DNA of 36,347 nt, from NCBI GenBank assembly GCA_017554385.1, contig JAFZIL010000078.1, forward strand, positions 1 to 36,347, given 5' to 3'. The number at the start of each line of letters is the position of its first letter. The first letter of the stretch is position 1. Under the pieces are notes generated by a model, which was given only the letters and a program-made list of their open reading frames with translations, was not told the origin of the DNA and searched no databases. The stretch is from Prevotella sp. GTDB lineage: Bacteria > Bacteroidota > Bacteroidia > Bacteroidales > Bacteroidaceae. Both the position numbers and the translations under genes were made by a program. Positions 1-36,347 of the stretch are shown piece after piece.

Positions 1-246
1 ACAGGCGAGACCTTCAGCGCTGCCGAGACGTTGACGTTCGTCAGCGACGTGGTGGGCAGCCGCAAGAGCCCCTACGCCGTGAACATCAGCACGACAACGG
101 GTATCAGTCAGCAGATGGCCGACCAGCCGATGACCATCTACACGCTCGACGGTATCCTCGTCAGCCGCGATGCCACCATCAAGACGCTGCACACGCTACC
201 GAAGGGTGTCTACATCGTCAATGGACGAAAGACGGTGGTTAAGTGA
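1..246 (+). CDS. C-terminal end of a large secreted surface protein (5' end outside window)
   Basis: The first base is in frame with no start codon, so this is the 3' end of a longer gene. The 81 visible residues form a C-terminal domain of the kind found on secreted Bacteroidetes proteins, ending in a short beta hairpin 'LPKGVYIVNGRKTVVK'. This resembles type IX secretion (T9SS type A) sorting domains; that role is known for the family and inferred here. Bases 1 to about 217 match 13395-13611, the end of the 2668-residue protein, with about six differences, so the two genes are paralogues or have been homogenised. This copy lacks the 10-residue insertion found near the end of the other. Its stop codon TGA is the first three bases of a heptanucleotide repeat tract. 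Confidence 0.85.
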   Translation, partial: TGETFSAAETLTFVSDVVGSRKSPYAVNISTTTGISQQMADQPMTIYTLDGILVSRDATIKTLHTLPKGVYIVNGRKTVVK

Positions 247-355
247 AAAGGGAAAAGTGAAAAGTGAAGAGTGAAAAGTGAAGAGTGAAAAGTGAAGAGT
301 GAAAAGTGAAGAGTGAAAAATGAAAAGTGAAGAGTGAAAAGTGAAGAGTGAATAA
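244..355 (+). repeat. Heptanucleotide tandem repeat tract, TGAAAAG/TGAAGAG
   Basis: Sixteen consecutive 7-base units run in perfect phase. They mostly alternate TGAAAAG and TGAAGAG, giving a 14-base higher-order period, with variants GGAAAAG, TGAAAAA and TGAATAA. Unit one supplies the stop codon of the upstream gene. Every unit carries TGA, so all plus-strand frames are closed, while the complement stays open. The tract lies between the upstream stop and the promoter of the 1720-residue gene. Confidence 0.97.
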
Positions 356-425
356 TTTGCTTCCGCTTTGTAAGTGAAAAGAGCACCGCTGACGTAACTG
401 TTGGCAGTGTTTTTTTGTCTGATTT

Positions 426-457
426 TTTGGCTGTTTCATTTTTTCTTTCTACCTTTG
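426..457 (+). promoter_or_regulatory. Bacteroidetes-type promoter of the LRR/dockerin gene
   Basis: TACCTTTG at 450-457 matches the Bacteroidetes -7 element TAnnTTTG. TTTG at 426-429 lies 20 bases upstream and fits the -33 element. The ATG at 488 follows about 30 bases later, which favours 488 as the start over upstream TTG codons in the same frame. Confidence 0.65.
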
Positions 458-487
458 TCAGCCCCAAAATTCCTAAAACACATTACT

Positions 488-5663: not shown

Positions 5664-8600
5664 ATGAAACATACGAGATGCTATATACTGTTGATGCTCC
5701 TGACCCTGATGGGCTTGAGCATGGAGGCACAGACCGCCAACACCATCAGCGTGCCTGACATCACTGCACAGATAGGCGAGGCGCAGTTGCCAGTGGTCTT
5801 AGAGAACAGCAGCGACATCGTGGCACTGCAGTTCGACCTGAAGCTACCTGAGGGCATGACTGCCGATGAGACGGCCACGCTGAGCAACCGTTGTGACGAC
5901 CATGTGGTCACCGTACGCTACATCAGCGGTGATACCTACCGCGTAGTGCTCGTCTCACCCACCAACCGTCCTGTTCGCGGACAGTCGGGCGTACTGCTAT
6001 ACATTCCCATCTACATTTCCCCGACTTTTGATGAGGGTGGTGAGTACACGGTAGCCGTCAATGGTGCCGTATTGAGCGACGCTGCCGGCGACAACGTCGT
6101 CACCGGCATGCAGGCGGGCACTATCAGTATCACGAAACTGCCCGACCTGACGGTAAAGAGCATCGTGCTCGATAAGCAGACCATCACACCTGGCGACACC
6201 GTCCGTGCATCATGGGTCGTAGAGAACGTCGGTGGGCTGGCCACCGGTGGAGGCTGGACCGAGCAGCTGTCGCTCGTCAGCGAGGATGGTAGCGTGAGCA
6301 AGCTCGTTGCCACCACTTATTATGACCAGACGTTAGAGGCTGGTGCCACCGTGAACCGTCAGGCCGAAGTGGTGATTCCGGCCCTGTTAGGCATCGACGG
6401 CGACGCACGGCTACAAGTGCGGCTCGTACCTGGCGAGAAGACGGGCGAGTCGCAGTCTGCCCAGGGCAACAATACCGGCAGCAGCGAAGCTTCTTATATC
6501 ATTAAGAAGGTGCTGACCTTGCAACTGCAACCCAGTAGGGTCGAGGAGAACAGCAGCAAGCGCATCACTGCCCGGTTGAGCCGCAGTGGTCGCTGGGACC
6601 TGGGACAGGTGTTCAACCTCCATACCACCACCGACAGTCGTCTCAGCGTGCCTGCCACGGTGACTATTCCGGCCAGTCAGTCTGCTCGTGTCTTCTATCT
6701 GACCTTGACCGATAATGATGTGCTCGATACCGATTCCATCATCAATATCGCTGTTGAGGGCAATGGCTACGACAAGATAGAGCAGCAGCTTGTCATTATA
6801 GACAACGAGTATCCCGACTTGCAAGTCACTGCCTCGAAATCATCACTGAATGAAGGAGAGACCTTCCAACTGACTATCACCACCACACACGTTTCTGCTG
6901 ATCCTATCGTGGTGACGCTCAGTTGCGAGAATCCCCGTCGCTTCACCTTCCCCTCGCAGGTTACCATTCCTGCGGGCGAAAGCTCGGTAACGGTCGATGT
7001 TACCGCCATCAACGACGATATCCCCTCGATCCAGCTCTCTACCGCCTTCACCGCTTCGGCCACCAATTATAATAAGGGCGAAGTGGTTGTCGTGCTCAAC
7101 GACGATGACCTGCCATTGCTCGAACTCTCGCTCACCCCGTCGACCGTACAGGAGAATGCCGGTCCTGTGTCCGTGATAGGTGTGCTGCGCCGCACTACCA
7201 ACACTGATAGTAAGATCACTGTGAAGATTTCTGACGATTCTAACGGAGGACTTTACTTCGGCAACCAGACCCTTGAACTGGCCAAGGGAGTAGAGGAAGT
7301 ACACTTCAACTTTGGACCTGTTGACAATATGCAGGTCGACGGTGACCGCACTTATACCATTACGGCAGCGGTCTATATGTCGACATGCGATTGCTCGGTT
7401 GTTGGCGATGCAGCAGGCGCAGTGAGCACACAGCTCATAGTGCTTGACAACGATGGTCCTGCACTTTCGGTGACAGCCAGTGCAACGACCGTGAAGGAAG
7501 GTGACACAACGACGCTTACCATCACCCGAAACACCGCTACCGATGCCGCTATCAGCGTGCAACTGTCGAGCGATTACGATGACCAGCTGACTTACGACCA
7601 CATGGTTACCATACCTGCCGGAGAGTCGTTGGTGAATATCGATGTTGTCTCCAAGACGAACGATATTACCAATGACAACCACATCGTAGTATTTACAGCT
7701 CAGACCGACGGTTATTCCTCTGGCACATGCTGGGTGATGATTACCGATCAGACCCTGCCGGATATGACGGTGAAGTCTATTGCCATCACTCCTGATAATA
7801 TCATGGTAGGAGACTGCTATACGGTCGATGTCACGATAGCCAATAACGGTGTGGCTGACATACCAGCACGTAGCACCTTTGTAATCAGCATTGCAGGTGA
7901 GACACTCGCCATGACCATTGCTGATGCCATTGCTCCTATGCAAGAGAAGGTGGTCACGCTGAATATGACAGCTCCTGCTATTCCTGGGGACTATACTGTC
8001 AGTGTGGAGTGTAACCGGGACTTTGCGTTTGCCGAGCTTCAGACGTACAACAACTCGCTGTCAGTTCCCTTGGCTGTTGCATCTGCTTTTGACTTCAGTG
8101 TAACCACCGACCGCACTGTATATCAAATTGGCGAAACGGTGAAAATCAGCGGTCATGTGTCGGCCATCAAGGGCAACGCTGCCAACGTAAATGTTGAACC
8201 ATATATTATTTGCTATGGTATGCGTCAAGTGCTTTCGGCTACAACCGATGCAAACGGTAACTTTACAGCCGAATATACGTTGCCTGTGGGTATGGGTGGC
8301 GACTTCACTGTCGGTGCTTGTGTACCTGGCGAAGAAGCTGTAGAGGCTCAGGCAACGATTCATGTTTATGGCATGGCCCGTACGTCGGCAGCTTACCTGA
8401 AGGGATACGTGACGGTGGGTAAGACTGAGAATATCAGTGTGCCCATCAAGAACCTGAGTAGCCTGCCCCTGCACAATATCAAGACCACGGTAACCGACAA
8501 TGCCGGGCATTATGATGTCACTGCTCCTGTGCTCGCAGAGCTTGATGGTAATGGTGAGGCAACAATAGAGTTGGCCCTTCGCTCTGATGTGGCTTCGACC

Positions 8601-11600: not shown

Positions 11601-13670
11601 GACCCGACCCACGGACTGGCTACCATCACGTCGGTGGTGCGCAAGAGTGATGGTACGGCCCTGTCCGCACAGAACTTCTGGCAGACCGACCGTACCCTGC
11701 GCGACGGAAAGGACTGGCTCTATGAGAATCGGCTACACCTTGCCGACAACTTTGCCGACGGCACAGCGCAAACCTACATCCTGACGTTTGAGCCAGTGCC
11801 CGAAACATTGCTTGAGATTGCGGCTATTGAGGGCATACCTGCTGATGGCACATTAGCTACTGAGCCTGTCGATGACATTACTGTTCGATTTAACAAGGCC
11901 ATTGATCCGGTTACGTTCACTGCCGATGACCTGACGCTTGTCGTTCAGGGCACAAAGCAGGACATCTCGCAGATAGCCATCTCTACCGATGACAACACCG
12001 CCTTCACCCTCCACCTTACACCCTCCACCCTCCACCTTCCCAACGGTTACTATGTGCTCACCGTAGCTACTGCCGACATTACCGACCACGAGGGTTTCCA
12101 GGGTCGTAACGGGCGTCAGGCTGCTTGGGTGATGTATCGCGGCGGACTCGTGCAGTTGCTCACGTCGACCTATCCTGCCAACTCAGGTACTGTGTCGCGT
12201 GGTACGCAGGAAGACACCAACGGTTCGCGCTTACTGACACCCGCCAATGATGACGAGACAGCTACCTATGGCTCTACCGTCGTGCTCACCGCCGAGCCTG
12301 CCGAAGGCTATGAGTTCAGCAGTTGGTCGCTCAATGGCGAGACGGTATCTACCGACCCGCAGTACACCACCACCGCTCTTGGCGATATGGATGTGGTGGC
12401 CAACTTCGTGAAGAAGAAGTATATGGTCAACATCGCCTCTGCCGATGAGACAATGGGAACTGTCAGCGGTACGGGCACAGGTATCTACGAGCATGGCACC
12501 AACATTGAACTGACTGCCGTGCCAGCCTACGATTATGCCTTCAAGGAGTGGATTGTCGATGGAGCTGCCATCACCTCGCCTTCCACCCTCTCGCTCACCG
12601 TTGACAAAGAGCTTGACGTCAAAGCCTCGTTCCTGCGCGAGTACTACTACCAGACGTTGAGGTTCACGCGTGGATGGAACTGGGTGTCTGGCTACCTCCA
12701 GGAACCCATCGACCTGGCTACGATTGCCAACGGCAGCAACCGCATCTTGAGTCAGACCAACGAGCTCATTCGTGACCCTCAGTTGGGTATGGTAGGCCCA
12801 TTGCAGTCGCTGCAGCCTGCTGAGAGCTACAAGGTGCAGGCTGCCAGCACGTTCAGTTGCACATTCCGTGGACATCTTGTTGATGTTGCCCAGAACGGCC
12901 TGTCGCTTGAGAAAGGATGGAACTGGATGGGCTACCCGTCGTCTGAGAACCAGCCTATCAGCACGATCGTAAATCCCGAGGAGGGTGACTATATCGCTGC
13001 GCAGGAGGGCTTCTCCGAGTATGCCAATGGTAGTTGGGCTGGCTCGCTCGCTCAGCTGACTCCCGGCCAGGGCTACCTCTACAAGTCGGCCACGCAGAAG
13101 ACGCTTGCCTTCGACTTCACCGAGGCACCTGCCGGCAGCCGTATGGCTAAATCTCAAATCTCAAACCTTAAATCTCAAACCTCCAGCGTCGATCCTCACC
13201 AGTATCCCTCGACGATGAACATCACCGCCCGCATCTACCGCGACGGCATGGAGCTGCCCGGCAGTCAGTACACGGTGTATGCCTACGCCGGTGACGAGCT
13301 GCGTGGTGTGAGCCAGTTTGTGGGAGAGAACCACTACCTCACGGTCTATGGCGACGAGCCGGTGAACATCAGCTTCATCGTGGAATCGGCAGAGACAGGC
13401 GAGACCTTCAGCGCTGCCGAGACGTTGACGTTCGTCAGCGACGTGGTGGGCAGCCGCAAGAGCCCCTACGCCGTGAACATCAGCACGACAACGGGTATCA
13501 GTCAGCAGATGGCTGACACGCCGATGACCATCTACACGCTCGACGGTATCCTCGTCAGTCGCGATGCCACCATCAAGACGCTGCACACGCTGCCCAAGGG
13601 TGTCTACATCGTGCGCTCGGCCGACGGACGCTTGCCTGGCAAGAACGGTCGCAAGACGGTGGTGAAGTGA
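5664..13670 (+). CDS. Giant secreted multi-domain adhesin-like protein (2668 residues)
   Basis: Begins with a signal peptide (about 1-23, ending MEAQ). Visible order: cohesin-like beta domain (24-157, 'LPVVLENSSDIVALQFDL'); CARDB (158-280); four Calx-beta-like repeats (283-694, each with 'xxExxG/EEN' and 'VTIPAG' signatures); second CARDB (698-805); macroglobulin-like domain (807-900); SpaA/Cna-B-like domain (1133-1215); a long region with a Cys-containing segment; Big_5 (near 2055-2150); two InlB-B repeats (2202-2325, 'GYEFSSWSLNG'); two 'GWNWxxGY' repeats (2336, 2417); and a C-terminal sorting-like domain. No enzyme motif is seen, so a structural or adhesive surface role is inferred. Three repeat-derived peptides are embedded: PSTLHL at 2115-2126, KSQISNLKSQ at 2496-2507, and RSADGRLPGKN at 2651-2661. 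The last is absent from the paralogue at 1-246. The stop codon is part of a heptad repeat unit. Confidence 0.88.
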   Translation: MKHTRCYILLMLLTLMGLSMEAQTANTISVPDITAQIGEAQLPVVLENSSDIVALQFDLKLPEGMTADETATLSNRCDDHVVTVRYISGDTYRVVLVSPTNRPVRGQSGVLLYIPIYISPTFDEGGEYTVAVNGAVLSDAAGDNVVTGMQAGTISITKLPDLTVKSIVLDKQTITPGDTVRASWVVENVGGLATGGGWTEQLSLVSEDGSVSKLVATTYYDQTLEAGATVNRQAEVVIPALLGIDGDARLQVRLVPGEKTGESQSAQGNNTGSSEASYIIKKVLTLQLQPSRVEENSSKRITARLSRSGRWDLGQVFNLHTTTDSRLSVPATVTIPASQSARVFYLTLTDNDVLDTDSIINIAVEGNGYDKIEQQLVIIDNEYPDLQVTASKSSLNEGETFQLTITTTHVSADPIVVTLSCENPRRFTFPSQVTIPAGESSVTVDVTAINDDIPSIQLSTAFTASATNYNKGEVVVVLNDDDLPLLELSLTPSTVQENAGPVSVIGVLRRTTNTDSKITVKISDDSNGGLYFGNQTLELAKGVEEVHFNFGPVDNMQVDGDRTYTITAAVYMSTCDCSVVGDAAGAVSTQLIVLDNDGPALSVTASATTVKEGDTTTLTITRNTATDAAISVQLSSDYDDQLTYDHMVTIPAGESLVNIDVVSKTNDITNDNHIVVFTAQTDGYSSGTCWVMITDQTLPDMTVKSIAITPDNIMVGDCYTVDVTIANNGVADIPARSTFVISIAGETLAMTIADAIAPMQEKVVTLNMTAPAIPGDYTVSVECNRDFAFAELQTYNNSLSVPLAVASAFDFSVTTDRTVYQIGETVKISGHVSAIKGNAANVNVEPYIICYGMRQVLSATTDANGNFTAEYTLPVGMGGDFTVGACVPGEEAVEAQATIHVYGMARTSAAYLKGYVTVGKTENISVPIKNLSSLPLHNIKTTVTDNAGHYDVTAPVLAELDGNGEATIELALRSDVASTTRSWEVVHVTLSSDEGTTMDFVIHCFANVEEGRLEIDRTNINANIGNTKPTVIPVTLTNTGQGATGRITVMVPGGQQFFSLTTPAEISSLEQGDSVVVGLCFNPEGLDVNVIQRGSIAINCENADGKLINYNLKVVGEQNGNLKVLVEDENTIYGNAAGEHPYVSGATVALKDYSTGNVLYSAVTQDEGSVLFSDVPEGYYTLYVTASKHSSYMQNVLVSPGQTNEHLATISYQPISISWNVVETTTEDQYEIVTEVDYETQVPVPVMEMIAPDTLDLYSVEEGQPLLYHIVVTNKGLIAAQNVCIGLPEAEGFKFTPLDTYAGFELAPQQSQTIPVLVTRDDSPSASRRMADDNIKYICGKDTYLNWQWVCKNHRDAWWVKTVYFLMRNCKPTGVKPMPPANVEEDWPTRDVGPEPKLRYYNIEPVDLETIKEIVSTVACMMVCALPEKLTTEWVKEPKFRWRCAFEEAANRHPYPASSRQMANSSSPSLRDSYLDRLYLFINLSESVYNFYEMLANAPQLSDDSETFNLLMPSMDEILLLMGQLHNEGTLYTISIDDLCGMSVSLLPQQTADWYDFNLRTFIERQLNTFRLRDGQTVSSDNYCDVAKLDAAADSMALWQSRIRDLGYVDYKDMIESMNADAEVINSKQSNVCAKVKMQLSQEMVFTRQAFLGTLVIENSTDNELTDISALITATDENGTVATSREMEIILESAEGFVKADDGSYKLGAGQTGSFAYKFIPTKYAAPNHVVDYDFGGVLTFNDGSGITKRDLYPVTLTVKPSPVLDLTYFMQRDIYGDDPLTLDVVEPTVPAEFALLINNVGNGDATNVRMTTQQPEIIDNEKGLNINFEFLSSQVNGQPASLAFGQSIANDFGTIAAHEQAYGQWWLQSSLLGHFINYNVTATHVTSYGNPDLSLLGDVTIHELIHSLEVTDGEKTLRGFMVNDVADAEDLPDMLYLTNGDVMPVAVSTNVQATKTSATMCEVTVVPAEAGWNYGCVADPTHGLATITSVVRKSDGTALSAQNFWQTDRTLRDGKDWLYENRLHLADNFADGTAQTYILTFEPVPETLLEIAAIEGIPADGTLATEPVDDITVRFNKAIDPVTFTADDLTLVVQGTKQDISQIAISTDDNTAFTLHLTPSTLHLPNGYYVLTVATADITDHEGFQGRNGRQAAWVMYRGGLVQLLTSTYPANSGTVSRGTQEDTNGSRLLTPANDDETATYGSTVVLTAEPAEGYEFSSWSLNGETVSTDPQYTTTALGDMDVVANFVKKKYMVNIASADETMGTVSGTGTGIYEHGTNIELTAVPAYDYAFKEWIVDGAAITSPSTLSLTVDKELDVKASFLREYYYQTLRFTRGWNWVSGYLQEPIDLATIANGSNRILSQTNELIRDPQLGMVGPLQSLQPAESYKVQAASTFSCTFRGHLVDVAQNGLSLEKGWNWMGYPSSENQPISTIVNPEEGDYIAAQEGFSEYANGSWAGSLAQLTPGQGYLYKSATQKTLAFDFTEAPAGSRMAKSQISNLKSQTSSVDPHQYPSTMNITARIYRDGMELPGSQYTVYAYAGDELRGVSQFVGENHYLTVYGDEPVNISFIVESAETGETFSAAETLTFVSDVVGSRKSPYAVNISTTTGISQQMADTPMTIYTLDGILVSRDATIKTLHTLPKGVYIVRSADGRLPGKNGRKTVVK
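12006..12040 (+). repeat. In-frame heptad tract ACCCTCC/ACCTTAC
   Basis: Five 7-base units in phase (ACCCTCC, ACCTTAC, ACCCTCC, ACCCTCC, ACCTTCC) lie within the Big_5-like domain of the 2668-residue protein. They encode TLHLTPSTLHLP. The same peptide PSTLHL appears from similar tracts in the TonB receptor gene downstream. Confidence 0.92.
13149..13182 (+). repeat. In-frame heptad tract AAATCTC/AAACCTT
   Basis: Four 7-base units plus a partial one (AAATCTC, AAATCTC, AAACCTT, AAATCTC, AAACC) encode the polar linker KSQISNLKSQT, just before the C-terminal domain of the 2668-residue protein. Confidence 0.92.
13395..13611 (+). repeat. Direct repeat of window positions 1-217
   Basis: Nearly identical to bases 1-217 (about six differences) and in the same orientation 13.39 kb away. 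It encodes the shared C-terminal domain. The real repeat may extend upstream of base 1, beyond the window. Confidence 0.93.
13614..13646 (+). repeat. 33-base single arm of the palindromic element, in frame
   Basis: This matches the right arm of the large inverted repeat at 36306-36338 with three differences in 33 bases. It falls exactly where this protein has 30 extra bases (10 residues) relative to its paralogue at 1-246, which indicates insertion into a coding sequence without loss of frame. Confidence 0.85.
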
Positions 13671-13751
13671 AAAGTGAATAGTGAAGAGTGAAAAGTGAAT
13701 AGTGAAAAGTGAATAGTGAAAAGTGAATAGTGAAAAGTGAATAGTGAATAG
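13668..13751 (+). repeat. Heptad tract TGAAAAG/TGAATAG bridging two genes
   Basis: Twelve 7-base units in phase. The first TGA is the stop of the 2668-residue gene, and the GTG start of the TonB receptor lies across units 11 and 12 (13744-13746). The tract fills the whole 73-base gap, so no conventional promoter is visible between these genes. Confidence 0.95.
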
Positions 13752-15846
13752 AGCAGCCTTAAGCTTTTTCCTTGCTATCCTGACCGTAGCTACTGCGCAT
13801 GCACAGCAACAGTCGGGACGGTTCGACTCCCTGCAACACGTCAAGGAGGTGGTGGTGACATCGAAGCTGGTGTTCCGTGAGGTCATGCCGTCGCAGAAGC
13901 TTAACGGTGAGGAGTTGGAGCGGCTGAGCAGTCATAGCGTGGCCGACGCCCTGCGCTACTTCTCCGGCGTACAGCTGAAGGACTATGGCGGCGTGGGCGG
14001 CGTGAAGACCGTCGATGTGCGGTCGATGGGAACAAACCATCTGGCGGTGAGCTACGATGGTATTGTGCTGGGGAACGCGCAGAACGGACAGGTGGACTTA
14101 GGGCAGTTCTCGCTCGACAATGTCGACGAGATCACGCTGTTCAACGGTCAGAAGAGTGCCATCTTCCAGCCCGCCAGCGACTTCGCCTCGGCCTCGTCGG
14201 TCTACATCCGTACAAGGGCACCGCGCTTCACCGTGGGGAAGGATACCAACTGGAAGCTGCGGGCGAAGTACGGTGCCAGCGACCTGCTGCGTCTGTCGGC
14301 CCTCTATGAGCACCGCTTCCACGAGGACCTGAGCCTCAGTGCCAACACGGAGGTGCTCATGGCCAGCGGCAAGTATAAGTTCCGCTACCACCGTAAGAAC
14401 CTTGACGGCACTACGGCATGGGACACCACCGCCACCCGCCAGAACGGTGATATACAGGCCGTGCGGGCCGAGGTAAACCTGCACGGGCTGCTGACGCAGG
14501 GTGCCTGGCAGCTGAAGGGCTACTTATACAACTCTGCACGAGGCATTCCTGGTGCCATCGTCAACAACGTGTGGATGCGGGGTGAGCGACAGCAGGACCT
14601 GAACACCTTCGTACAGGCCCACTTACAGAAGAGCGTGGGCGAGCGGTTCAGCACCCAGTGGTTGGCGAAGTACGCCTTCTACCGCACCCACTACGTGAAC
14701 CGCGACAGCACCCGCCTGCCCGTGGACAACCTATACCGACAGCAGGAGGCCTACCTCTCGACGGCCAACGTGCTGGAGCTGCTGCCTGGATGGAGCGCGA
14801 GCATGAGCTATGACCTGCGCTGGAACAAGCTCAGCGCTGACACCTATAACTTCGCATGGCCCACACGCTTCACCCACATGCTCTCCATCGCCACCGCCAT
14901 CGACTACCGTCACTTGAAGGTGCAGGGCAGCGTCGTCGGCACGCTCATCAACGACAAATCTCAAACCTCCACCCTCCATCCTCCACCCTCCACCCTCCAC
15001 CGCTTTACCCCCGCCCTCTTTGCCAACCTCTATCCCCTGCGGGGTAAGTGGCTGTCGCTGAGGGCCTATGTGAAGCAGAGCTTCCGCATGCCCACCTTCA
15101 ACGACCTGTACTATACCGACATCGGCAACGCCTCACTACTGCCTGAGAAAGCTACGCAGTACGATGTTGGCCTTGTCATCGACCGCCACTTCCCTTCACC
15201 CTCCACCCTCCACCTTCCGCTCGACCTCTGGTCGCTTGCAAGGCAAGAACCCTTCACCATCACCCATTTCGACCTCCACGCCGACCTTTATTATAACAAG
15301 GTGAGAGACAAGATCATCGCCTATCCCAAGGGCCAGCAGTTCCGTTGGACGATGCTCAACCTGGGCGAGGTGAACATCAAGGGCTTTGACCTCACCTCCA
15401 GCGTCTCGTTTGCCGTAGGTCGCGACTTGGTCGCGACGCTCCGTGGCCAGTACACTTACCAGGACGCTCGCGACGTGACCGACCCCGAGACACCCTACTA
15501 CCGGCACCAGATACCCTATATCCCCCGCCATAGCGGGAGCGTGATCATGGGCATGGACTGGCGGAGATGGACGCTGAACTACAGCTTCCTCTATACTGGC
15601 GAACGCTGGAACGAACAGGAGAACACGGCCTACAACCACATGCAACCCTGGTACACCAGCGACCTCTCGGTGAGCTTCCAGCCCATTGGCCTTATTAGCC
15701 ACATTAGCCCTGTTGGCCCTAAAAGTCCCATGACCCTCCGCATCACTGCCGAGGTGAACAACCTCTTCGACCAGCAATACGACGTTATCCTGAACTACCC
15801 GATGCCGGGCCGCAATGCGGCCATCGGCCTCGACATCACCTTTTAA
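13744..15846 (+). CDS. TonB-dependent outer-membrane receptor (BtuB/haem/siderophore type)
   Basis: A 700-residue receptor for energised uptake across the outer membrane. The signal peptide (about 1-21, 'FFLAILTVATAHAQ') is followed by a plug domain (about 30-160: 'VKEVVVTSK', 'LNGEELERLSSHSVADAL', 'VDVRSMGTNHLAVSYDG') and a beta-barrel ending in an aromatic residue (DITF). There is no N-terminal carboxypeptidase-like extension of the SusC kind, so a BtuB-like small-molecule receptor is more likely than a glycan transporter. It overlaps nothing but is only 2 bases from the periplasmic-binding lipoprotein, so the substrate is probably shared. The start is unusual: a stop at 13738-13740 leaves GTG 13744, inside a heptad tract, as the only start that keeps the signal peptide. 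The barrel contains several repeat-derived inserts (residues 405-420, 485-502, 647-661). Confidence 0.9.
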   Translation: MNRAALSFFLAILTVATAHAQQQSGRFDSLQHVKEVVVTSKLVFREVMPSQKLNGEELERLSSHSVADALRYFSGVQLKDYGGVGGVKTVDVRSMGTNHLAVSYDGIVLGNAQNGQVDLGQFSLDNVDEITLFNGQKSAIFQPASDFASASSVYIRTRAPRFTVGKDTNWKLRAKYGASDLLRLSALYEHRFHEDLSLSANTEVLMASGKYKFRYHRKNLDGTTAWDTTATRQNGDIQAVRAEVNLHGLLTQGAWQLKGYLYNSARGIPGAIVNNVWMRGERQQDLNTFVQAHLQKSVGERFSTQWLAKYAFYRTHYVNRDSTRLPVDNLYRQQEAYLSTANVLELLPGWSASMSYDLRWNKLSADTYNFAWPTRFTHMLSIATAIDYRHLKVQGSVVGTLINDKSQTSTLHPPPSTLHRFTPALFANLYPLRGKWLSLRAYVKQSFRMPTFNDLYYTDIGNASLLPEKATQYDVGLVIDRHFPSPSTLHLPLDLWSLARQEPFTITHFDLHADLYYNKVRDKIIAYPKGQQFRWTMLNLGEVNIKGFDLTSSVSFAVGRDLVATLRGQYTYQDARDVTDPETPYYRHQIPYIPRHSGSVIMGMDWRRWTLNYSFLYTGERWNEQENTAYNHMQPWYTSDLSVSFQPIGLISHISPVGPKSPMTLRITAEVNNLFDQQYDVILNYPMPGRNAAIGLDITF
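14956..15003 (+). repeat. In-frame heptad tract AAATCTC then CACCCTC in the TonB receptor
   Basis: Units AAATCTC, AAACCTC, CACCCTC, CATCCTC, CACCCTC, CACCCTC, CACCGCT follow in perfect 7-base phase, encoding KSQTSTLHPPPSTLH in a predicted barrel loop. It joins two unit families seen separately elsewhere, which suggests they are one superfamily. The complementary strand is G-rich and could form a two-tier G-quadruplex. Confidence 0.93.
15197..15217 (+). repeat. In-frame heptad tract CACCCTC in the TonB receptor
   Basis: Three units (CACCCTC, CACCCTC, CACCTTC) encoding PSTLHL, directly followed by a degenerate arm of the palindromic element at 15218-15250. Confidence 0.88.
15218..15250 (+). 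repeat. Degenerate palindromic-element arm in the TonB receptor
   Basis: This aligns without gaps to 36306-36338 (28 of 33 bases), with the last 18 bases (CGCTTGCAAGGCAAGAAC) identical. It is read in a different frame (LDLWSLARQE) from the copies at 13614 and 36306. Confidence 0.72.
15683..15727 (+). repeat. In-frame nonanucleotide repeat in the TonB receptor
   Basis: Five 9-base units (CCATTGGCC, TTATTAGCC, ACATTAGCC, CTGTTGGCC, CTAAAAGTC) encode PIGLISHISPVGPKS, a loop between late barrel strands. The same nonamer family lies after the SGNH-like gene at 21451-21513. Confidence 0.88.
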
Positions 15847-22109: not shown

Positions 22110-22120
22110 CAACTTTTAAT

Positions 22121-22148
22121 GAAGAATAAAGAATGAAGAATGAAGATT
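22121..22148. repeat. Heptad tract GAAGAAT upstream of tRNA-Glu
   Basis: Four 7-base units (GAAGAAT, AAAGAAT, GAAGAAT, GAAGATT). It is roughly the inverse of the tract at 22207-22234, so the two could pair and form a hairpin in the divergent promoter region. Confidence 0.88.
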
Positions 22149-22206
22149 TTCCAGTTTGGTAATGTTTATTTAACTTTTTTTTGCTATATCGTCCACATAT
22201 TCTTTG

Positions 22207-22234
22207 TTCTTCATTCTTCATTTTTCATTTTTCT
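22207..22234. repeat. Heptad tract TTCTTCA upstream of recO
   Basis: Four 7-base units (TTCTTCA, TTCTTCA, TTTTTCA, TTTTTCT), ending 3 bases before the recO -7 element. It is complementary to 22121-22148. Confidence 0.88.
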
Positions 22235-22978: not shown

Positions 22979-23880
22979 TCGTAGATGCGCACGTAGTCTA
23001 TCTCGTAGCGCATGGGGAAGGCTGTGTCGTCGATCTCTCCACCGTTGTCCCCGCCCAAGGCGAGGTTGAGCAGCACGTACTGTTGTCCTTCGAAAGGATT
23101 GGTGTGTCGTCCTATCCTGCCGTTGACGGTCTGGCTGAGCGGAATCTCGTTGAGCAGTTCGTCGTCGAGATAGAGACTTATGCGCTGTTCGTCCCAGTCC
23201 ATGTGCCAGAGGTGGAAACGCTGTGCCCAGTCTGGGTCGCGTTTGGTGAAGTGGGTGAAGGGCACGCGCCGCGAGTTCCATACCGCCTCGAAGCGCCTGT
23301 CACTGCCCCACGCCGCGTTGGCAAGGATGTGCGGAACGCCCTTGATGCGGTAGTACTCCATCAGGTCCACCTCGCCGCACGATGGCCATGGCATTCCCTC
23401 GCCCAGCGTCCAAATGGCAGGCCAGGCACCGCCCGCTGTGGGTATGCGGGCGCTCACCTCAAGGCGTCCGTAGCGGAAATAGCGCTTGCCCTGCGTCGTG
23501 ATGCAGGCCGAGGTATAGTCGATGGTGGGTCGCTGTGCACCCCAGTGGTGCGCATCGGGGTTGTAGGTGGGGTTGGGTCGCTGTTCGCGCCGTGCCTCAA
23601 TCACGAGCAACCCGTCCTCGACGAACGCATTGTCGGCCTGGTACCACTGGTCCTCATGGTTACGTACAAAGCCTTCTTCGTAGTTCCATGTGGCAGGGTC
23701 GGGTCTGCCGTTGTAGTCGAACTCGTCGCTCCAGACGAGCCGCCATTCCCCTGTCGTCATCGTTTGTGCCTTCATCGTCGGTGATATCAGTAGGAGGACA
23801 ACCATCCACCATCCACTATCCACTATCATTCGCATTGACAAGGCAATGCCGCATGCTACGCTTGTTCTTTCTTTTTCCAT
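22918..23880 (-). CDS. Secreted glycoside hydrolase family 16 (beta-glucanase type)
   Basis: 320 residues from the first ATG. The GH16 catalytic site is 'GEVDLMEYY', with nucleophile Glu170, Asp172 and acid/base Glu175 (ExDxxE), and flanking 'GGAWPAIWTLG' and 'HxYxxxW'-type segments as in laminarinases. It would cleave beta-1,3 or mixed-linked glucans, or beta-galactans. Three start codons are possible (23880, 23835, 23829); only the region from 23829 looks like a signal peptide (IVDSGWWMVVLLLISPTMKAQ region), and its first codons are made of a heptad repeat. The domain ends at 'YVRIYDYENS'; the last 15 or so residues are antisense to recO and probably not functional. Co-directional with the GH30-like gene 9 bases upstream. 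Confidence 0.93.
   Translation of the reverse strand: MEKERTSVACGIALSMRMIVDSGWWMVVLLLISPTMKAQTMTTGEWRLVWSDEFDYNGRPDPATWNYEEGFVRNHEDQWYQADNAFVEDGLLVIEARREQRPNPTYNPDAHHWGAQRPTIDYTSACITTQGKRYFRYGRLEVSARIPTAGGAWPAIWTLGEGMPWPSCGEVDLMEYYRIKGVPHILANAAWGSDRRFEAVWNSRRVPFTHFTKRDPDWAQRFHLWHMDWDEQRISLYLDDELLNEIPLSQTVNGRIGRHTNPFEGQQYVLLNLALGGDNGGEIDDTAFPMRYEIDYVRIYDYENSSWSTSTERSSGKSGR
23801..23828 (-). repeat. Heptad tract encoding the signal-peptide start of the GH16 gene
   Basis: On the minus strand the units are TGATAGT, GGATAGT, GGATGGT, GGATGGT. The ATG at 23829 overlaps the first unit, and the tract encodes IVDSGWWMV, the N-region and first hydrophobic residues of the signal peptide. Confidence 0.88.
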
Positions 23881-26450: not shown

Positions 26451-28181
26451 TTAGTCGCCGACCCTTTCTACGATGAAGTCGCAGGCGGAGAACCAATTGC
26501 TACATTCAGCAGAGTTCAGGGCAACATCGGGAGCTAAGGTAACGCCATAGGTGAGGTTGCTGTTGCCAGACTCATTGGTAATGGTGATGTCGTCGAGGTA
26601 GATGCGGTTCCAACCGTAGCCCTGTCCGCCGTGAGCCGAGGCCTTGTTGAGGTCGAGGGCCAGGACACCTTCGTGGGCGTTGGCACGATTAGAGAAGCGG
26701 TTGAGGGCGGAGAACCACACGTTGCCACCCGCATCGCCATCGGCAGGAATCTCCTTTCGTACGGTCTGGTCGCCTACCTGTGCAAAGACGAGCAGTCCAG
26801 AGTGACCGCTGTCGGTATTCTTGGCACGTACCACAGCCGATACACGATAGCGCCCAGGACACAGGTTCTTGAGGGTGTTCTCAATGCGGAGACCGCTGCC
26901 ATAGTTCTCGCGCTTCACATGGAGATAGCCCGTCTGTTGGTCGGCGGTATAGTGTTCGCCACGAGCGGTAAACATGTCCTCGCGATGATAATCCATGGGC
27001 TGGTGAATGACGGTCCAGTGGTTACGGTTCAGGTAGTCCTGGTCGTTGTCGCTCAGACTGTCGATGTCGGCAGTAAGGTTGCGCTGCGCGTTGATGGTCA
27101 TCTGGGCGATATTGACCTGTTGCTTCAGGTCGTCGGGCATGTCGTTGGCGATACCGTTGGTCATGTTCATCAGTTCTTCAGCTTGACGCCAAGAGAGCAT
27201 GTAGGGGTAGCTCTCCACTTCTTTGTTGAGCGTATAGCAGATGGCTTTCTGCTCGGTGAGGGTGGCGGTGTTGCCGATACCCGTCATGAGCCACACCTTC
27301 GCCTTCAGTGCCTCGTAGCTGGTCTTGAGGTTGAACGTCCTGGGCTCGTCGTAAAGCTGCTGTGCCATCTTGATGAAATTGTACTGGAAGACTTCGGCCA
27401 GCGTGTCGGTGTCGAGGGCCTTGGCACGTTCGGGTTCCTTTTTACGGATGTCAAACAGCATGTTCTGCGCCACGCTTAGGGCTGTGTTGCTACGGTCGAG
27501 GTATTCCTCGTCATCGTAGGACTTGATCTGTGGCGTAGCCTTGAGCTTCGGACAGTGGAACTCGTACATGATACCGCCCGTGGCATAGTACTTGTGCTTG
27601 GTGTCGGCATTCTCCTCCTCTTCACTCTTCCACATGAGCAGATAGGTGGAACGGAAGCCGTCATCGTCCTTGAAACCGATGATGCGAACATTCATGGTCG
27701 GGTGAAGCTGTAGCGGGAAGGTCTCACCACCTTCACCGTATGCGATGCTGACACCTGGGAAGACGGCCTGCTCGTCGCCTGCCACATAGCTGTAGTAGCT
27801 GGCGGCAAAAGGCGACTGCTTGTCGTAGGCGTCGAGAATCTGTCGCAAGGGCAGGTTGGGGTCGTCGGGCACGTTGCGGAACTCGAAGCTCCAACCGTCG
27901 AGGTAGTTAGGTCCTATGTGTGCTCTGCCCTTTCCCAGCGGCACCACATGAATCTTGTTCTTGGGTACGAGACCGCCACCGTCAAGGGCTGTATAGATGA
28001 TGCTGAGGCTGTCCTTGCTGCCTGGTATCCATCGGGACGAGATATTCTTTGGAAACCTCTTGTCGAGTGTCTCTCTGAAGGCCGTATGCAGGGCCTGTGC
28101 GTGTTTGTTCTCCTGAGCATGGAGACTGGTTGTGCTGATGGGCATCAGCATGATTGCTATGATAATAATAATCGGTTTCAT
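26451..28181 (-). CDS. Secreted protein of unknown function (576 residues)
   Basis: I do not recognise the family. A signal peptide (about 1-22, 'IIIIIAIMLMPISTTSLHAQ') is followed by a compact mixed region, charged helical stretches (200-400, rich in Glu, Lys, Asn, Gln) and a C-terminal part about 400-560 with jelly-roll character ('YRVSAVVRAKNTDSGHSGLLVFAQVG', 'GWNRIYLDDITITNES') resembling a carbohydrate-binding module. It follows the anti-sigma-like gene with only a heptad repeat tract between, so it is probably the third gene of the sigma-factor operon and might be part of the stimulus-sensing or response. No catalytic motif was seen. Confidence 0.82.
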   Translation of the reverse strand: MKPIIIIIAIMLMPISTTSLHAQENKHAQALHTAFRETLDKRFPKNISSRWIPGSKDSLSIIYTALDGGGLVPKNKIHVVPLGKGRAHIGPNYLDGWSFEFRNVPDDPNLPLRQILDAYDKQSPFAASYYSYVAGDEQAVFPGVSIAYGEGGETFPLQLHPTMNVRIIGFKDDDGFRSTYLLMWKSEEEENADTKHKYYATGGIMYEFHCPKLKATPQIKSYDDEEYLDRSNTALSVAQNMLFDIRKKEPERAKALDTDTLAEVFQYNFIKMAQQLYDEPRTFNLKTSYEALKAKVWLMTGIGNTATLTEQKAICYTLNKEVESYPYMLSWRQAEELMNMTNGIANDMPDDLKQQVNIAQMTINAQRNLTADIDSLSDNDQDYLNRNHWTVIHQPMDYHREDMFTARGEHYTADQQTGYLHVKRENYGSGLRIENTLKNLCPGRYRVSAVVRAKNTDSGHSGLLVFAQVGDQTVRKEIPADGDAGGNVWFSALNRFSNRANAHEGVLALDLNKASAHGGQGYGWNRIYLDDITITNESGNSNLTYGVTLAPDVALNSAECSNWFSACDFIVERVGD

Positions 28182-28209
28182 ATTCTTAATTCTTAATTCT
28201 TAATTTTTA
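28182..28209. repeat. Heptad tract ATTCTTA filling an intergenic gap
   Basis: Four units (ATTCTTA three times, then ATTTTTA) fill the whole space between the 576-residue gene and the anti-sigma-like gene, and include the latter's stop codon (28207-28209). Confidence 0.92.
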
Positions 28210-28980
28210 AAAGCTAACATAATTTGTGGTACTGTCGTTCTGAATCTTGTTTAAGGCCTGTTCGACCTGTTTGCCTACGATGCGGTTGACCATCTGTTGC
28301 AGCCGTGCATCGGCGGCGATGAGTCTTTCCACCTGTGCCGAACTGACGCTGTCGTCAAGCTTTTCCATTTCTGCTTCGAGACGTGCAATACAGTTGGCAA
28401 GGTCCTCGGCTGATGAAACAGAGTTTGCCTTGGGAACCACTGTTGGAGCAACCTTCGTATTAGTAATCTGAGGTTTAGTTGATGTCGTTTGAGCCACGAC
28501 AGCTTGCTCTGTACTCTCCGTGGGGATGATGGCTTCGTGCTCGGGCTGTGACTCCCCTCCTGTGAGGGCAGGGTGCAGGTGGGGGGAGGCCTCTACGGTT
28601 TTCTCTGCCACCCATGTAGGCTGCTCAGCGGTGCTTCTTCCGAGATAGAACACCAACAACAGGGCGATGCTTGCAGCGATACCAGCCATCAGCCATCTAA
28701 GTGTGACTATCTTTGGCTTCTCCTTGACAGCCAGTGGAACCGATTCAGGCTTTTGGCTATTGGCTATCGGCCTTTGGCTGTTCGTGTCGGCTTCCGGCTC
28801 AATGTCCACTTGTCCGTTGTCGAACATCGCGAACATCTCTTTATATTCTGCCCAATCTTCGTCGACCTCATGGGTGCGGAAGTACTGTGCTAGCACCTCT
28901 TCCTCAGCAACGCTGGTCTCGCCAGCCATGAACTTGCTGAGCAAGTGGGCTATTTCCTGTTTGTCGTACTGTTGTTTCAT
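28207..28980 (-). CDS. Membrane anti-sigma-like protein
   Basis: 257 residues. The cytoplasmic N-terminal part (1-95) has an acidic helical start 'KQEIAHLLSKFMAGETSVAEEEVLAQYF', as in Bacteroidetes anti-sigma factors. A single membrane segment (96-114, 'WLMAGIAASIALLLVFYLG') is followed by a low-complexity periplasmic linker and a helical coiled-coil-like tail (190-245, 'LEAEMEKLDDSVSSAQVERL'). The gene overlaps the upstream sigma factor by four bases (ATGA), which supports translational coupling and a sigma/anti-sigma pair. The sequence has two repeat-like inserts: NSQRPIANSQKPES from a heptad tract (about 66-78) and ASPHLHPALTGGES from a GC-rich hairpin element (130-146). No FecR domain was seen, so the sensing role is inferred from context. 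Confidence 0.75.
   Translation of the reverse strand: MKQQYDKQEIAHLLSKFMAGETSVAEEEVLAQYFRTHEVDEDWAEYKEMFAMFDNGQVDIEPEADTNSQRPIANSQKPESVPLAVKEKPKIVTLRWLMAGIAASIALLLVFYLGRSTAEQPTWVAEKTVEASPHLHPALTGGESQPEHEAIIPTESTEQAVVAQTTSTKPQITNTKVAPTVVPKANSVSSAEDLANCIARLEAEMEKLDDSVSSAQVERLIAADARLQQMVNRIVGKQVEQALNKIQNDSTTNYVSF
28551..28590 (-). repeat. In-frame GC-rich hairpin sequence in the anti-sigma-like gene
   Basis: A C/G-biased segment with CTCCCC and GGGGAG at its ends, capable of forming a stem, encodes ASPHLHPALTGGESQ in the periplasmic linker. Its base bias differs sharply from flanking codons. It looks like an interspersed repeat; other genomic copies cannot be seen here. Confidence 0.5.
28750..28783 (-). 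repeat. In-frame heptad tract CTATTGG in the anti-sigma-like gene
   Basis: Units on the plus strand are CTTTTGG, CTATTGG, CTATCGG, CCTTTGG, then a divergent CTGTTCG. They encode the repetitive NSQRPIANSQKPES in the cytoplasmic linker. Confidence 0.85.
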
Positions 28981-30380: not shown

Positions 30381-30765
30381 CCGTGTCCATTTATGCTGAA
30401 AACATGCCGTCCGAACGGTTCGGACAAAAATCCGAACGCTTCGGACAAAAGTCCGGACAGTTCGGACGAAGGCAAACAGCCCCTGTTAAGACATCAAACA
30501 GCCCCTGTGCAGGAGCGAGGATGGTACGCATAACCAAATGAGAAATGAGGAAAGATATTGGTGTAGGATAATTGCGGATAAAATGCAGATAATTTGTATG
30601 TAACTAACTGGAAATCAGTATTTGGTGTAGGATAAGCGGATATTTGATAATGTTATTTGTGTACGAGGCTGGGGACAGTACTACCCAATGGCATCCTGGA
30701 CGACCAAACCAGCAAGCATGAAGCCGAAAATGTCCTGTGTTCCCTAAAGAGTGTTCATGTTGCTT
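30381..30765. other. 385-base gene-poor region with a 21-base tandem repeat
   Basis: Holds a 21-base palindromic tandem repeat (30410-30472), two copies of CAAACAGCCCCTGT (30473 and 30495), and two copies of TTGGTGTAGGATAA (30558 and 30622). One short frame, 30404-30541 (45 codons), spans the repeat and is doubtful as a gene. No RNA gene was recognised. It lies between the ends of two convergent genes. Confidence 0.8.
30410..30472. repeat. Three copies of a 21-base palindromic tandem repeat
   Basis: Each 21-base unit starts TCCGAAC or TCCGGAC and contains a centre near (G/C/A)-TTCGGAC that is complementary to the start, so every unit folds on itself. The third unit differs at several positions. 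The repeat length is three times seven, in keeping with the heptad theme. In one frame it reads SERFGQK, SERFGQK, SGQFGRR. Confidence 0.93.
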
Positions 30766-33437: not shown

Positions 33438-33455
33438 GTCTGTGTCGGACGAAGC

Positions 33456-33688: not shown

Positions 33689-33701
33689 GTTTTTCTTAAA
33701 A

Positions 33702-33729
33702 AATTATGAATTATGAATTAAGAATAATT
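33702..33729. repeat. Heptad tract AATTATG upstream of efp
   Basis: Units AATTATG, AATTATG, AATTAAG, AATAATT in phase, ending 3 bases before the efp -7 element and occupying its -33 region. Confidence 0.8.
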
Positions 33730-33732
33730 TTG

Positions 33733-33740
33733 TACCTTTG
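33733..33740 (+). promoter_or_regulatory. -7 element of efp
   Basis: TACCTTTG (TAnnTTTG), 37 bases before the efp ATG at 33778. Confidence 0.65.
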
Positions 33741-33777
33741 CACTCGGAATTCAATAATTTATCACTTTATAATCCGT

Positions 33778-34344: not shown

Positions 34345-34371
34345 TAAGAAATACCCTTTCTATGATCATGG

Positions 34372-34411
34372 GGGCGTGTCATGTTTTTGGCATGCCCTCT
34401 TTATTTATCTC
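34372..34411 (+). terminator. Terminator of efp
   Basis: GGGCGTG (34372-34378) pairs with CATGCCC (34391-34397), followed by a T-rich stretch TCTTTATTTATC. Confidence 0.65.
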
Positions 34412-34487
34412 TTTTTGCTACACAATATTTTTTCCCCTTTCGTGTTATATACTATATACATTAATTAAATAGAAAACTTATTCCGCT

Positions 34488-35858
34488 ATGAAGAAATGTC
34501 TTTTTTTGTTATCGGCAATCGTTGCATGCTGCATGATGCCGTCGTGTTCGTCCGCTTCTGACGATGAGGAGGATAAAAAAGAAATTGTGGAAGAAGAAAA
34601 GAAGGACAATACCGAAGAAGTAATAGACGACGACGGAGACGTAGAGAAAAACGACTCCGACGATGTGGTCTACATGTTGCCGAGAACCACACCTGTGGTT
34701 TTGTCGGCAGCGCAGAAGGTGTTTGCCAACGATAACAACAGCTTCACGCTTAGCTTCCTGAAAACTATGAACGAAGCTGTAAACAGCGGCAAGGGTTTCG
34801 TCTGCTCTCCACTGAGCATTACCTATGTGCTGGCCATGGTGAACGATGCTGCTTCAGGCGAGACCGAGCAGGAACTGGAGCAGACGCTCGGCTTCCACAA
34901 AGGAGGCATCCAGGCGGTGAACGGCTATTGCAAGAACCTGATTGACAATCTGCCGAAGGTCGACGAGAACGTGCAGTTGACCATTGCCAATGCCATCTTT
35001 CTCAATAAGATTTACACGTTGAGAGACCAGTTCCTGAAGGACATGAAGACGTATTACGATGCCAAGGCCGAGGCCCTCGACTTCTCTTCGCCCGCCACGC
35101 TTGGCTACATCAACGGCTGGTGCAACGAGAAGACGCAAGGCATGATACCCACCATTCTGAACGAAGTGGATCCAGATGCGGTGTCCTATCTGCTGAATGC
35201 CATCTACTTCAAGGCCAACTGGATGTCAAAGTTCGACCCCAGTAAGACGAAGACGGAAACCTTCGCCACTCCCACTGGCACCAAGCAGATACCCTTGATG
35301 CATCAGAACGTGATGACCGGATACATGAAAACCGACGACTACGCAGCCGTCACCATGCCATACGGAAGCGGTCTGTGGAATATGACTGTGCTGTTGCCCG
35401 AGGAAGGTAAGACCACCGACGACGTGATCAGCATCCTGGCTAAAGAAGGATGGTTGACAGACTACGACAAGAATCCGCTGATGGGCTATAGGGAAGCAGA
35501 GGTAGACCTGAAGCTGCCGCGATTCGAGACTTCGACGGATACGAATGATTTCGGATCACTTGTCGGAATGCTGAAGGAAATGGGTATCCAGCAGGCTTTC
35601 AACCCGAAGAAGGCCGAGATCCTGAATATGTGTGATGTGCCGGTCTTTATTTCCATGATGCGTCAGAAAGCCAAGATCGAGGTCAACGAAGAAGGCTCGA
35701 AGATGGCAGCCGTGACAGTCGCTCAGATGGATGCTACCTCAATGGCGCCTGATGAAATGGTCAAGGCCGACTTCCATGCCAACCGTCCTTTTGTCTACCT
35801 CATCCACGAGGCCAGCTCGGGCGTCATACTCTTCGTCGGAAAATATACCGGAGAATAA
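34488..35858 (+). CDS. Lipoprotein serpin (serine protease inhibitor family)
   Basis: 456 residues. The lipoprotein signal ends at the lipobox MPSC with Cys20, and a strongly acidic spacer (about 25-62, Glu/Asp/Lys-rich) holds the domain off the membrane. The serpin fold is clear: 'NSGKGFVCSPLSITYVLAMVNDAASGETEQEL', 'NAIYFKANWMSKFD', 'NMTVLLPEEG' and the reactive-centre hinge 'VNEEGSKMAAVT' (Glu401, Glu402, Gly403), then 'ANRPFVYLIHEASSGVILFVGKY'. A short, small-residue hinge suggests an inhibitor. By counting 17 residues from the hinge, P1 would be Thr with P1' Ser in 'DATSMAP', which points to an elastase-like or papain-like target, though this is uncertain. The likely role is protection from host or rival proteases. 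Confidence 0.93.
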   Translation: MKKCLFLLSAIVACCMMPSCSSASDDEEDKKEIVEEEKKDNTEEVIDDDGDVEKNDSDDVVYMLPRTTPVVLSAAQKVFANDNNSFTLSFLKTMNEAVNSGKGFVCSPLSITYVLAMVNDAASGETEQELEQTLGFHKGGIQAVNGYCKNLIDNLPKVDENVQLTIANAIFLNKIYTLRDQFLKDMKTYYDAKAEALDFSSPATLGYINGWCNEKTQGMIPTILNEVDPDAVSYLLNAIYFKANWMSKFDPSKTKTETFATPTGTKQIPLMHQNVMTGYMKTDDYAAVTMPYGSGLWNMTVLLPEEGKTTDDVISILAKEGWLTDYDKNPLMGYREAEVDLKLPRFETSTDTNDFGSLVGMLKEMGIQQAFNPKKAEILNMCDVPVFISMMRQKAKIEVNEEGSKMAAVTVAQMDATSMAPDEMVKADFHANRPFVYLIHEASSGVILFVGKYTGE

Positions 35859-35900
35859 AAGTGTGATAGCAAACAAGGTAGAAACAATAGTTAGGCAGAG

Positions 35901-36347
35901 ATGAAGTATTCGTTTATAGTGCCAGTGTTCAACCGCCCTGAAGAAGTCGACGAACTGCTGCGGAGCATGTGTCAGCAGACGATGAAGGACTTTGAGGTAA
36001 TCATCGTGGAGGACGGCTCGAAGAACCCCTGTAAGGATGTCTGTGATAAGTATTCAGGGCAGCTGGACCTGCACTACTATTATAAGGAGAACAGCGGTCC
36101 CGGCCAGAGCCGTAACTACGGTGCCGAGCGTGCCCAAGGCGAGTGGCTTATTGTGCTCGACTCGGACGTGGTATTGCCGAAAGATTATATGGCAAGTGTA
36201 GAGTGTAGAGTGGAGAGTGTAGAGTTCTTGCCTTGCAAGCGTCCTTCGGCCGAGCGTGCTACCGCTCCTCAGGCTACTGCCTCAGGAAAAGGCAGTGCGG
36301 TAGCCCGCTCGGCCGAAGGACGCTTGCAAGGCAAGAACTCTACACTC
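35901..36347 (+). CDS. Family 2 glycosyltransferase, 3' end outside window, interrupted by a palindromic element
   Basis: The ATG at 35901 begins 'MKYSFIVPVFNRPEEVDELL', a GT-A family 2 start, with 'FEVIIVEDGSK', 'ENSGPGQSRNYGAERAQGEW' and the metal-binding 'LDSDVVLP' in order. The reading frame then enters a heptad tract (36195) and a large inverted repeat (36215-36347) and stays open to the window end for 51 further codons (ending ...GRLQGKNSTL). This stretch has no similarity to any GT2. The enzyme may be disrupted, or may tolerate the insertion in a loop after the nucleotide-sugar site. The 3' end is not in the window. Confidence 0.85.
   Translation, partial: MKYSFIVPVFNRPEEVDELLRSMCQQTMKDFEVIIVEDGSKNPCKDVCDKYSGQLDLHYYYKENSGPGQSRNYGAERAQGEWLIVLDSDVVLPKDYMASVECRVESVEFLPCKRPSAERATAPQATASGKGSAVARSAEGRLQGKNSTL
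36195..36222 (+). repeat. Heptad tract AGTGTAG in the glycosyltransferase gene
   Basis: Units AGTGTAG, AGTGTAG, AGTGGAG, AGTGTAG in phase. The last unit runs into the left arm of the palindromic element, and the complementary sequence (CTCTACACTC) closes the right arm at the window end. Confidence 0.92.
36215..36347. repeat. Large nested palindromic element (42-base exact arms)
   Basis: Left arm 36215-36256 and right arm 36306-36347 are exact reverse complements. Inside, GCTACCGC (36258-36265) pairs with GCGGTAGC (36297-36304) and ACTGCC with GGCAGT near the centre, so one long nearly perfect hairpin of about 133 bases forms. The window stops at the arm, so the true end may lie further on. 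One arm occurs alone at 13614-13646 and, degenerate, at 15218-15250. Confidence 0.95.

Follow-up and report, generated by a model that had tools for sequence, protein, structure and literature searches.

Thirteen short tandem tracts in one contig of a Prevotella sp. genome have the same unit length of seven bases but different unit sequences, and the question arose of how one period can be kept while the sequence changes. The contig (JAFZIL010000078.1 of assembly GCA_017554385.1, 36,347 nucleotides) was analysed over its whole length and is called the window in the following; it is contig C77 of a host genome of 3.06 Mb in 98 contigs. As set out below, the heptad tracts probably belong to a family of small palindromic elements dispersed in genomes of the Prevotella lineage, of which they form the bodies or arms or are what remains.

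Arrays were detected with Tandem Repeats Finder (TRF) and with our own period scorer at a threshold score of at least 13. TRF placed a period-7 array at or within ~10 bases of all 13 positions given in an earlier note on this DNA and added a fourteenth short array at 28683-28697. The claim of that note that every tract has period 7 held for these 13 positions but not for the window as a whole, since TRF at its lowest threshold also gave arrays with a 21-bp unit (30410-30467) and with 9/18-bp units (21451-21506). Our own scorer found 12 period-7 tracts in the window, the tract at 28748 falling under the threshold, and none at periods 4-6 and 8-13; four rows scored at period 14, and the 14-bp rows of TRF overlap 7-bp arrays. 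In 100 third-order Markov surrogates of the window no tract was found at periods 5-9. The sample of the own genome (the window plus 20 stretches, 338,691 bp) contained 49 period-7 tracts, 12 of them from the window, compared to 0, 1, 7 and 2 at periods 5, 6, 8 and 9. The 80 best EF-P relatives (1.43 Mb, identity 81-97%), which are labelled Prevotella, Prevotellaceae, Xylanibacter or Bacteroidales and of which many come from the ruminant gut, gave 138 tracts versus 0, 1, 29 and 18, many of them from one orthologous promoter because the EF-P gene is present in all 80 loci. The same loci also had a smaller excess at other periods, namely 22 for exact repeats and 8 and 9 for tracts. In 20 loci from other congeners, 35 period-7 tracts were found (0, 0, 8 and 11 at periods 5, 6, 8 and 9), with none in 9 of the 20, and 20 loci from 20 other families contained a single one. 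Nine loci of apparent isolates (185 kb) had 14 tracts at period 7, one at 9, two at 11 and none at the remaining periods between 5 and 12; therefore, the excess is no artefact of metagenome assembly. Thus the period scan of genome and relatives which the earlier note had proposed revealed a sharp peak at 7 over 5, 6, 8 and 9 in several unit families. The peak is real, proper to the genus and patchy within it: period 7 dominates in window, genome and genus, and the other families of the order do not show such dominance. One explanation of the peak is that the tracts are ordinary long simple sequence repeats which grew by slippage with a 7-bp preference of the polymerase, their shared words being due to chance or segmental duplication. 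Consistent with slippage, a duplicated gene end carries arrays of 16 and 12.3 units in its two copies, and the portions consulted of two papers describe heptamers as favoured, and the commonest long unit, in many bacteria, crediting a 2007 study by Mrazek and others (PMC4679880, PMC4692102).

The further expectation that the unit sequences are unrelated apart from their period was not borne out, as they share a composition rule, a terminal word at fixed phase and palindromic halves. One strand was free of C in 45 of the 49 tract units of the own genome sample, a property of 23% of genomic 7-mers; TG was present in 48 and TGA in 37 of these units. In the relatives, a C-free strand was found in 116/138 tracts compared to 25% of genomic 7-mers. 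Neighbouring units differed by A/G exchanges in roughly every second case (193/375 differences, 118 tracts). That the 7-bp repeats are target-site duplications was considered and rejected, since this leaves the C-free rule unexplained. Many tracts, read on the TG strand, terminate 3' in the word TTTGCTACCGC at a fixed phase. This cap is present in 53 copies in the genome, the reversed word in two. Congeners differ strongly: among 35 genomes, G034 has 46 copies, G031 43, G033 25, G023 15 and G022 10, and 13 have none; 24 genomes of other families have at most 5 each. Unit repetition by itself leaves the cap and core words unexplained, a criterion of our own that applies to capped tracts only. 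A further word, ATGATTAC, here called cap B, is frequently a gene start (MIT...), but a function as start codon only was rejected, since it closes facing pairs of tracts in the relatives L009 and L070; it is probably a second cap. The second module is a 30-bp double hairpin core, whose first half occurs in 13 exact copies. At least 5 of the 13 copies split a heptad tract between two complete units, and the units flanking the core match each other and differ from locus to locus; the remaining copies sit inside other repeats or outside any repeat. Its reverse complement reads RSAEGRLQGKN, similar to the C-terminal ends of some surface proteins, so that the core was considered as a relic of coding sequence, but borrowing may have gone either way; in the window, the core read backwards (36227-36256) resembles the C-terminal end of the large surface protein, RSADGRLPGKNGRKTVVK (13614-13646). 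Separately, the over-represented 11-mers AACAGCCCCTG, AGTTAGGGGAA and GGGGGGCACAC point to further dispersed repeats in the own genome sample.

Capped tracts often occur as facing pairs with a short interior between them (21 examples, 3 of them without heptads on one or both sides), and the facing halves form a hairpin of about 100-150 bp. All six palindromes that were folded had z-values between -3.9 and -14.5, with -5.9 for the pair upstream of recO and -14.5 for the element at 36195..36347. Of 299 genomes searched within the genus, 34, among them the present one, contain the exact capped palindrome, and none contains a reversed-control palindrome. Slippage would yield neither a cap at fixed phase nor complementary facing arms, nor the C-free rule, nor the residence in a single frame of open reading frames (ORFs) described below; as regards capped tracts, the counts of caps and palindromes argue against slippage, and we consider it unlikely as the general explanation. 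Copies are located in promoters, in operon gaps and in frame inside genes. Where a tract lies between two ORFs of the same direction, its TG strand is mostly the coding one (47 versus 9 tracts in the own sample, 38 versus 13 in the relatives). This bias is compatible with selection and alike with a role as regulatory repeats in messenger leaders, acting in translation or transcription, as proposed for the TAACTGA repeats of Beggiatoaceae; that several tracts adjoin start codons also fits such a role.

By a strict rule, 61 of 139 tracts lie inside ORFs, which argues against a leader role. In three housekeeping enzymes of this genome the heptad-encoded segments could be set against solved homologues. 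Residues 368-394 of PriA lie between aligned stretches that are contiguous in the homologue, between the YHAR and LGSATP motifs; residues 204-245 of ExoVII stand opposite 7 residues of the homologue chain, and residues 295-324 of RNase R opposite 4, between the DFDDA and GVHIADV motifs, which are catalytic. Both tracts of the TonB receptor are in segments that are extra or variable compared to 9 relatives, and the one at 15192..15247 lies within an in-frame insert of ~20 aa which is absent in 7 of the 9 and much shorter in the other two (L104, L108). Two tracts lie in the HD domain of an ORF that also carries a poly(A) polymerase head domain. Then, 40 palindromes from 16 other genomes were examined, following an earlier first set of 14. 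Twenty-one were in ORFs open through both arms, and all 21 read in the frame FATA...AVAN with an interior length of 1 mod 3. The other 19 were not spanned by an ORF in any other frame, and their interiors were 0, 1 and 2 mod 3 in 8, 8 and 3 cases. Two of the hosted palindromes, L277 and L285, look like one insertion common to two species. A Pfam family was matched by 19 of the 20 hosts scanned (L285 was left out), and the hosts in congeners include GMP synthase, PurL, RsmF, dGTPase, carbamoyl-phosphate synthase, threonine synthase and serine dehydratase. Among 77 places drawn from the list of capped palindromes, 49 had an interior of 1 mod 3, p = 5e-8 if these are independent, a value that is optimistic because near-identical copies and shared sites are among the 77 places. 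Both arms were free of stops in 10/21 hosted and 0/19 other palindromes of the second set, and an asymmetry of stops between the arms was present in 11/21 and 5/19, respectively; in the first set, a mirror of the opposite arm would bring one or two stops in all nine hosted cases. In sum, the in-ORF copies examined all use one frame, which stays open also in the arm on a strand that otherwise tends to contain stops. Judged from the open frames and the conserved flanking motifs, the palindromes would add odd loops to everyday enzymes.

Two sites next to the EF-P gene could be followed across species. The promoter slot of EF-P contains a heptad array in 31 of 79 species, with several units and in both orientations, and no array at periods 5, 6, 8, 9 or 10 in any of the 79; eight species were intermediate and excluded from the heptad and non-heptad groups. 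Measured from an anchor further upstream, the -7-like box lies at 51 bp in 27 of the 31 heptad alleles, at 50 in one and at 44 in one (two unmeasured), and in the 40 non-heptad alleles at 51 bp in 17, at 50 in 5 and at 40 in 7 (11 unmeasured). The 44-bp allele is that of the window itself, exactly one unit below the 51 bp of most relatives, as expected from slippage. On a quick tree of 70 species, on which 24 of 67 inner branches were weakly supported, parsimony required at least 15 changes of presence and at least 25 changes of type, counts which have no shuffled control. The recurrence of heptads in this one slot is a point for a leader role, but the units are interchangeable between species, even reversed, unlike a binding site, and we regard that role as quite improbable. 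Phase-variable contingency loci, in which 7-bp copy changes toggle genes on and off, are a further explanation; the hmw promoters of Haemophilus with their 7-base repeats are an analogy, 7 is not a multiple of 3, and tracts are found in a surface receptor and in promoters. Since housekeeping enzymes are among the hosts and the slot length is that constant in the heptad alleles, phase variation is very unlikely. The second site is a loop of the family 2 glycosyltransferase (GT2) beside EF-P, in which period-7 DNA was found in 20 of 64 measurable species, period 9 in one and periods 5, 6, 8 and 10 in none; other species have plain sequence or whole palindromes, and the end of the window lies inside a palindrome at exactly this site. 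At the same loop, L014 (2473-3642) and L030 (10701-11930) have other in-frame inserts, G- or C-rich and without heptads, that of L014 being the inverted repeat CCCCTCTCC...GGAGAGGGG. Within the own genome, the site at 13149 has a counterpart on contig C40, where a stretch of 87.5% identity carries a tract of a different unit (TGGATGG type), and the array at 241 has none beside a 95.6% identical stretch, the similarity stopping just before the array. Orthologous sites thus vary between species in presence, unit type and orientation.

These observations are best accommodated by the palindromic element family. A half-element would consist of ~3-16 heptads of the form TGNNNNN, nearly free of C, and end in a fixed cap, of which TTTGCTACCGC is the best known; a facing pair of halves with 12-64 bp between them would give the hairpin of roughly 100-150 bp. 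The elements may have spread as mobile or gene-converted sequence, by a copying activity or by conversion between arrays, and may have settled in tolerant surface loops, spacers and promoters, with harmful insertions removed by selection; array length would then shift by 7-bp slippage, and copies would decay through substitution. Several points weigh against this. No mobilising enzyme was found, and a target-site duplication was not readable for lack of clean empty sites that are near enough in DNA sequence. The heptad slot of EF-P has the same length as non-repeat alleles, which is predicted by neither simple insertion nor slippage. Only about a fifth of tracts (33/165) have TTTGCTACC on their 3' side, in a larger tract sample that was enriched for the cap TTTGCTACCGC. 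The TGAGGTT, TGGATGG and TGGAGGG types have no clear cap and, therefore, may represent either plain products of slippage or elements in decay; that the uncapped majority of tracts belongs to the same family is what we infer. Finally, stop asymmetry was also present in 3 of the 5 non-hosted palindromes of the first set (among them L181, which is hosted by another analysis); since non-hosted palindromes are asymmetric too, it is weak evidence by itself and was dropped as proof of selection.

Candidate enzymes were sought among known ones. A reverse transcriptase or telomerase-like enzyme that writes heptads from an RNA template would account for a period that is constant while the sequence changes, reverse transcriptases of defence systems are known to make repeats, and PF00078 genes are present in this genome and in the cap-rich G034. 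PF00078 does not follow the caps, being found in 3 of 11 tested cap-bearing congeners (those with at least 5 copies of the cap) versus 9 of 17 others, and the PF00078 genes found here have their matches among group II intron maturases, one gene being split in two; a reverse transcriptase as writer was rejected and is extremely unlikely. A Y1 transposase as in REP/RAYT systems (repetitive extragenic palindromes and their associated tyrosine transposases) was also rejected, since the only Y1 gene found in this genome has another palindrome at its flanks and neither cap nor tract; Y1 genes (PF01797) occur in 15 of 24 congeners, 8 of 11 cap-bearing and 7 of 13 others, with no clear association. 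The Y1 gene itself (L216, on contig C75 of genome G000) lies between GTAGGGGCAGGCCC...GGGCCTGCCCCTAC palindromes and appears to be a RAYT/REP system apart from the heptads. A more far-reaching reading, which we offer as a tentative and rather doubtful one, is that the palindromes form a distinct class of mobile elements in Bacteroidota, namely foldback elements that are compatible with translation, have renewable heptad arms and are copied by an unrecognised activity working in 7-bp steps. If so, arrays would be swapped in place at promoters and protein loops, with the length of the promoter slot kept, and new loops would continually be installed in housekeeping enzymes.

The tracts of the window lie in or between ORFs for large surface proteins, a TonB receptor operon, recO, polysaccharide hydrolases, EF-P, a serpin and the glycosyltransferase. 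The first feature (241..366, plus strand) is a 16-copy array at 241-352 followed by the cap variant TTTGCTTCCGC at 356-366; judged from a paralogue, the array appears to begin where the gene upstream ends in its stop codon (...KTVVK, then stop). An ORF of 2668 aa (5664-13670) contains two minus-strand tracts, one at 12001..12040 with the C-rich strand AFTLHLTPSTLHLP and one at 13149..13183 (KSQISNLKSQTS). Between the stop of this ORF and the TonB-dependent receptor lies a 12-copy array (13665..13751, plus strand), and the likely GTG start of the receptor (13744) falls in its last unit. In the receptor itself the minus-strand tract at 14955..15001 is the one in the segment variable among the 9 relatives, and the one at 15192..15247, also on the minus strand, is joined to the hairpin core CTTGCCTTGCAAGCGACCAGAGGTCGAGCG. 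The facing tracts upstream of recO (22118-22146 and 22200-22233; feature 22118..22233, no strand assigned) lie between divergent TAATTTTG boxes. Minus-strand tracts follow in the N-terminal segment of a GH16 ORF (22918-23880) at 23801..23827 and at 28182..28210, abutting the ATG of the ORF 26451-28181; facing tracts at 28683..28779 (no strand assigned) are in frame within the ORF 28207-28980. A 21-bp tandem palindromic unit, TCCGAACGGTTCGGACAAAAA, extends with its flank over 30409-30654 and has a ~90% identical copy on contig C25 (L089, 7112-7303), hence another dispersed repeat. The tract in the EF-P promoter slot is at 33702..33740 on the plus strand, with the -7-like box TACCTTTG at 33733-33740. 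A serpin gene (34488-35858) separates EF-P from the glycosyltransferase, and in most relatives examined those two are within ~200 bp of each other. The 5' part of the glycosyltransferase gene (35901..36347, plus strand) ends at the contig end; its assignment to family 2 comes from the relatives beside EF-P and their invariant DSD motif. In frame in this gene and cut by the contig end is the palindromic element at 36195..36347 (no strand assigned), in the order heptads, hairpin core, GCTACCGC (36258-36265), interior, GCGGTAGC (36297-36304), core, heptads. Its frame is open as SVECRVESVEFLPCKRPSAERATAPQATASGKGSAVARSAEGRLQGKNSTL, since AGTGGAG stands in place of one AGTGTAG unit.

Since the hosts are enzymes with solved relatives, the tolerance of proteins for new segments is directly testable, and annotators and structure predictors should be aware that such loops are probably inserts. 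At the EF-P promoter and the GT2 loop, the same site with the same period and another unit opens a bacterial seven-base preference to comparative tests. Rickettsia are hard to grow, and a similar system now appears in abundant gut bacteria, with the exact palindrome in the 34 genomes mentioned and heptads in cultured species, for instance Xylanibacter brevis, which has arrays in L003. In-frame palindromes in genes are otherwise known chiefly from Rickettsia, as far as could be seen from the parts consulted of PMC10969869.

How, then, does this family relate to known systems? With REP/RAYT systems it shares small palindromic repeats. With miniature inverted-repeat transposable elements (MITEs) it shares short inverted-repeat elements without genes, but here a parent transposase was not found, a target-site duplication was not readable and the terminal repeats are variable heptads. 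The short tandemly repeated repetitive (STRR) sequences of cyanobacteria are heptanucleotide repeats, too. With heptanucleotide simple sequence repeats in general, as far as the sections consulted describe them (PMC4679880, PMC4692102), the genome has the period-7 excess in common; different here are the many units under one composition rule, part of them capped, the palindromic pairs and the in-frame residence in ORFs. According to the same sections, TAACTGA repeats are present in Beggiatoaceae, cyanobacteria and some Bacteroidetes, contain stop codons and are often located just upstream of starts; there, one unit is used and one-base variants are rare as repeats, whereas dozens of units are used here. 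No description of heptad-armed palindromes in Prevotella, nor any other matching account, was found in the literature searched (open-licence papers), and the combination of heptad arrays with in-frame palindromes appears to be new, heptamer excess and in-frame palindromes each being known. Most similar by description, compared without sequence alignment, are the Rickettsia palindromic elements (RPE), which the parts consulted of PMC10969869 describe as dispersed, of ~150 bp and nearly half in frame in genomic ORFs. Both are hairpin-forming palindromes of ~100-150 bp inserted in frame in unrelated protein genes; the elements of Prevotella differ in the host phylum, in arms made of heptad arrays with caps and in that solo halves and promoter copies are common. 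By this analogy, they may work like RPE, as selfish inserts tolerated by proteins, but would be built from heptad arrays.

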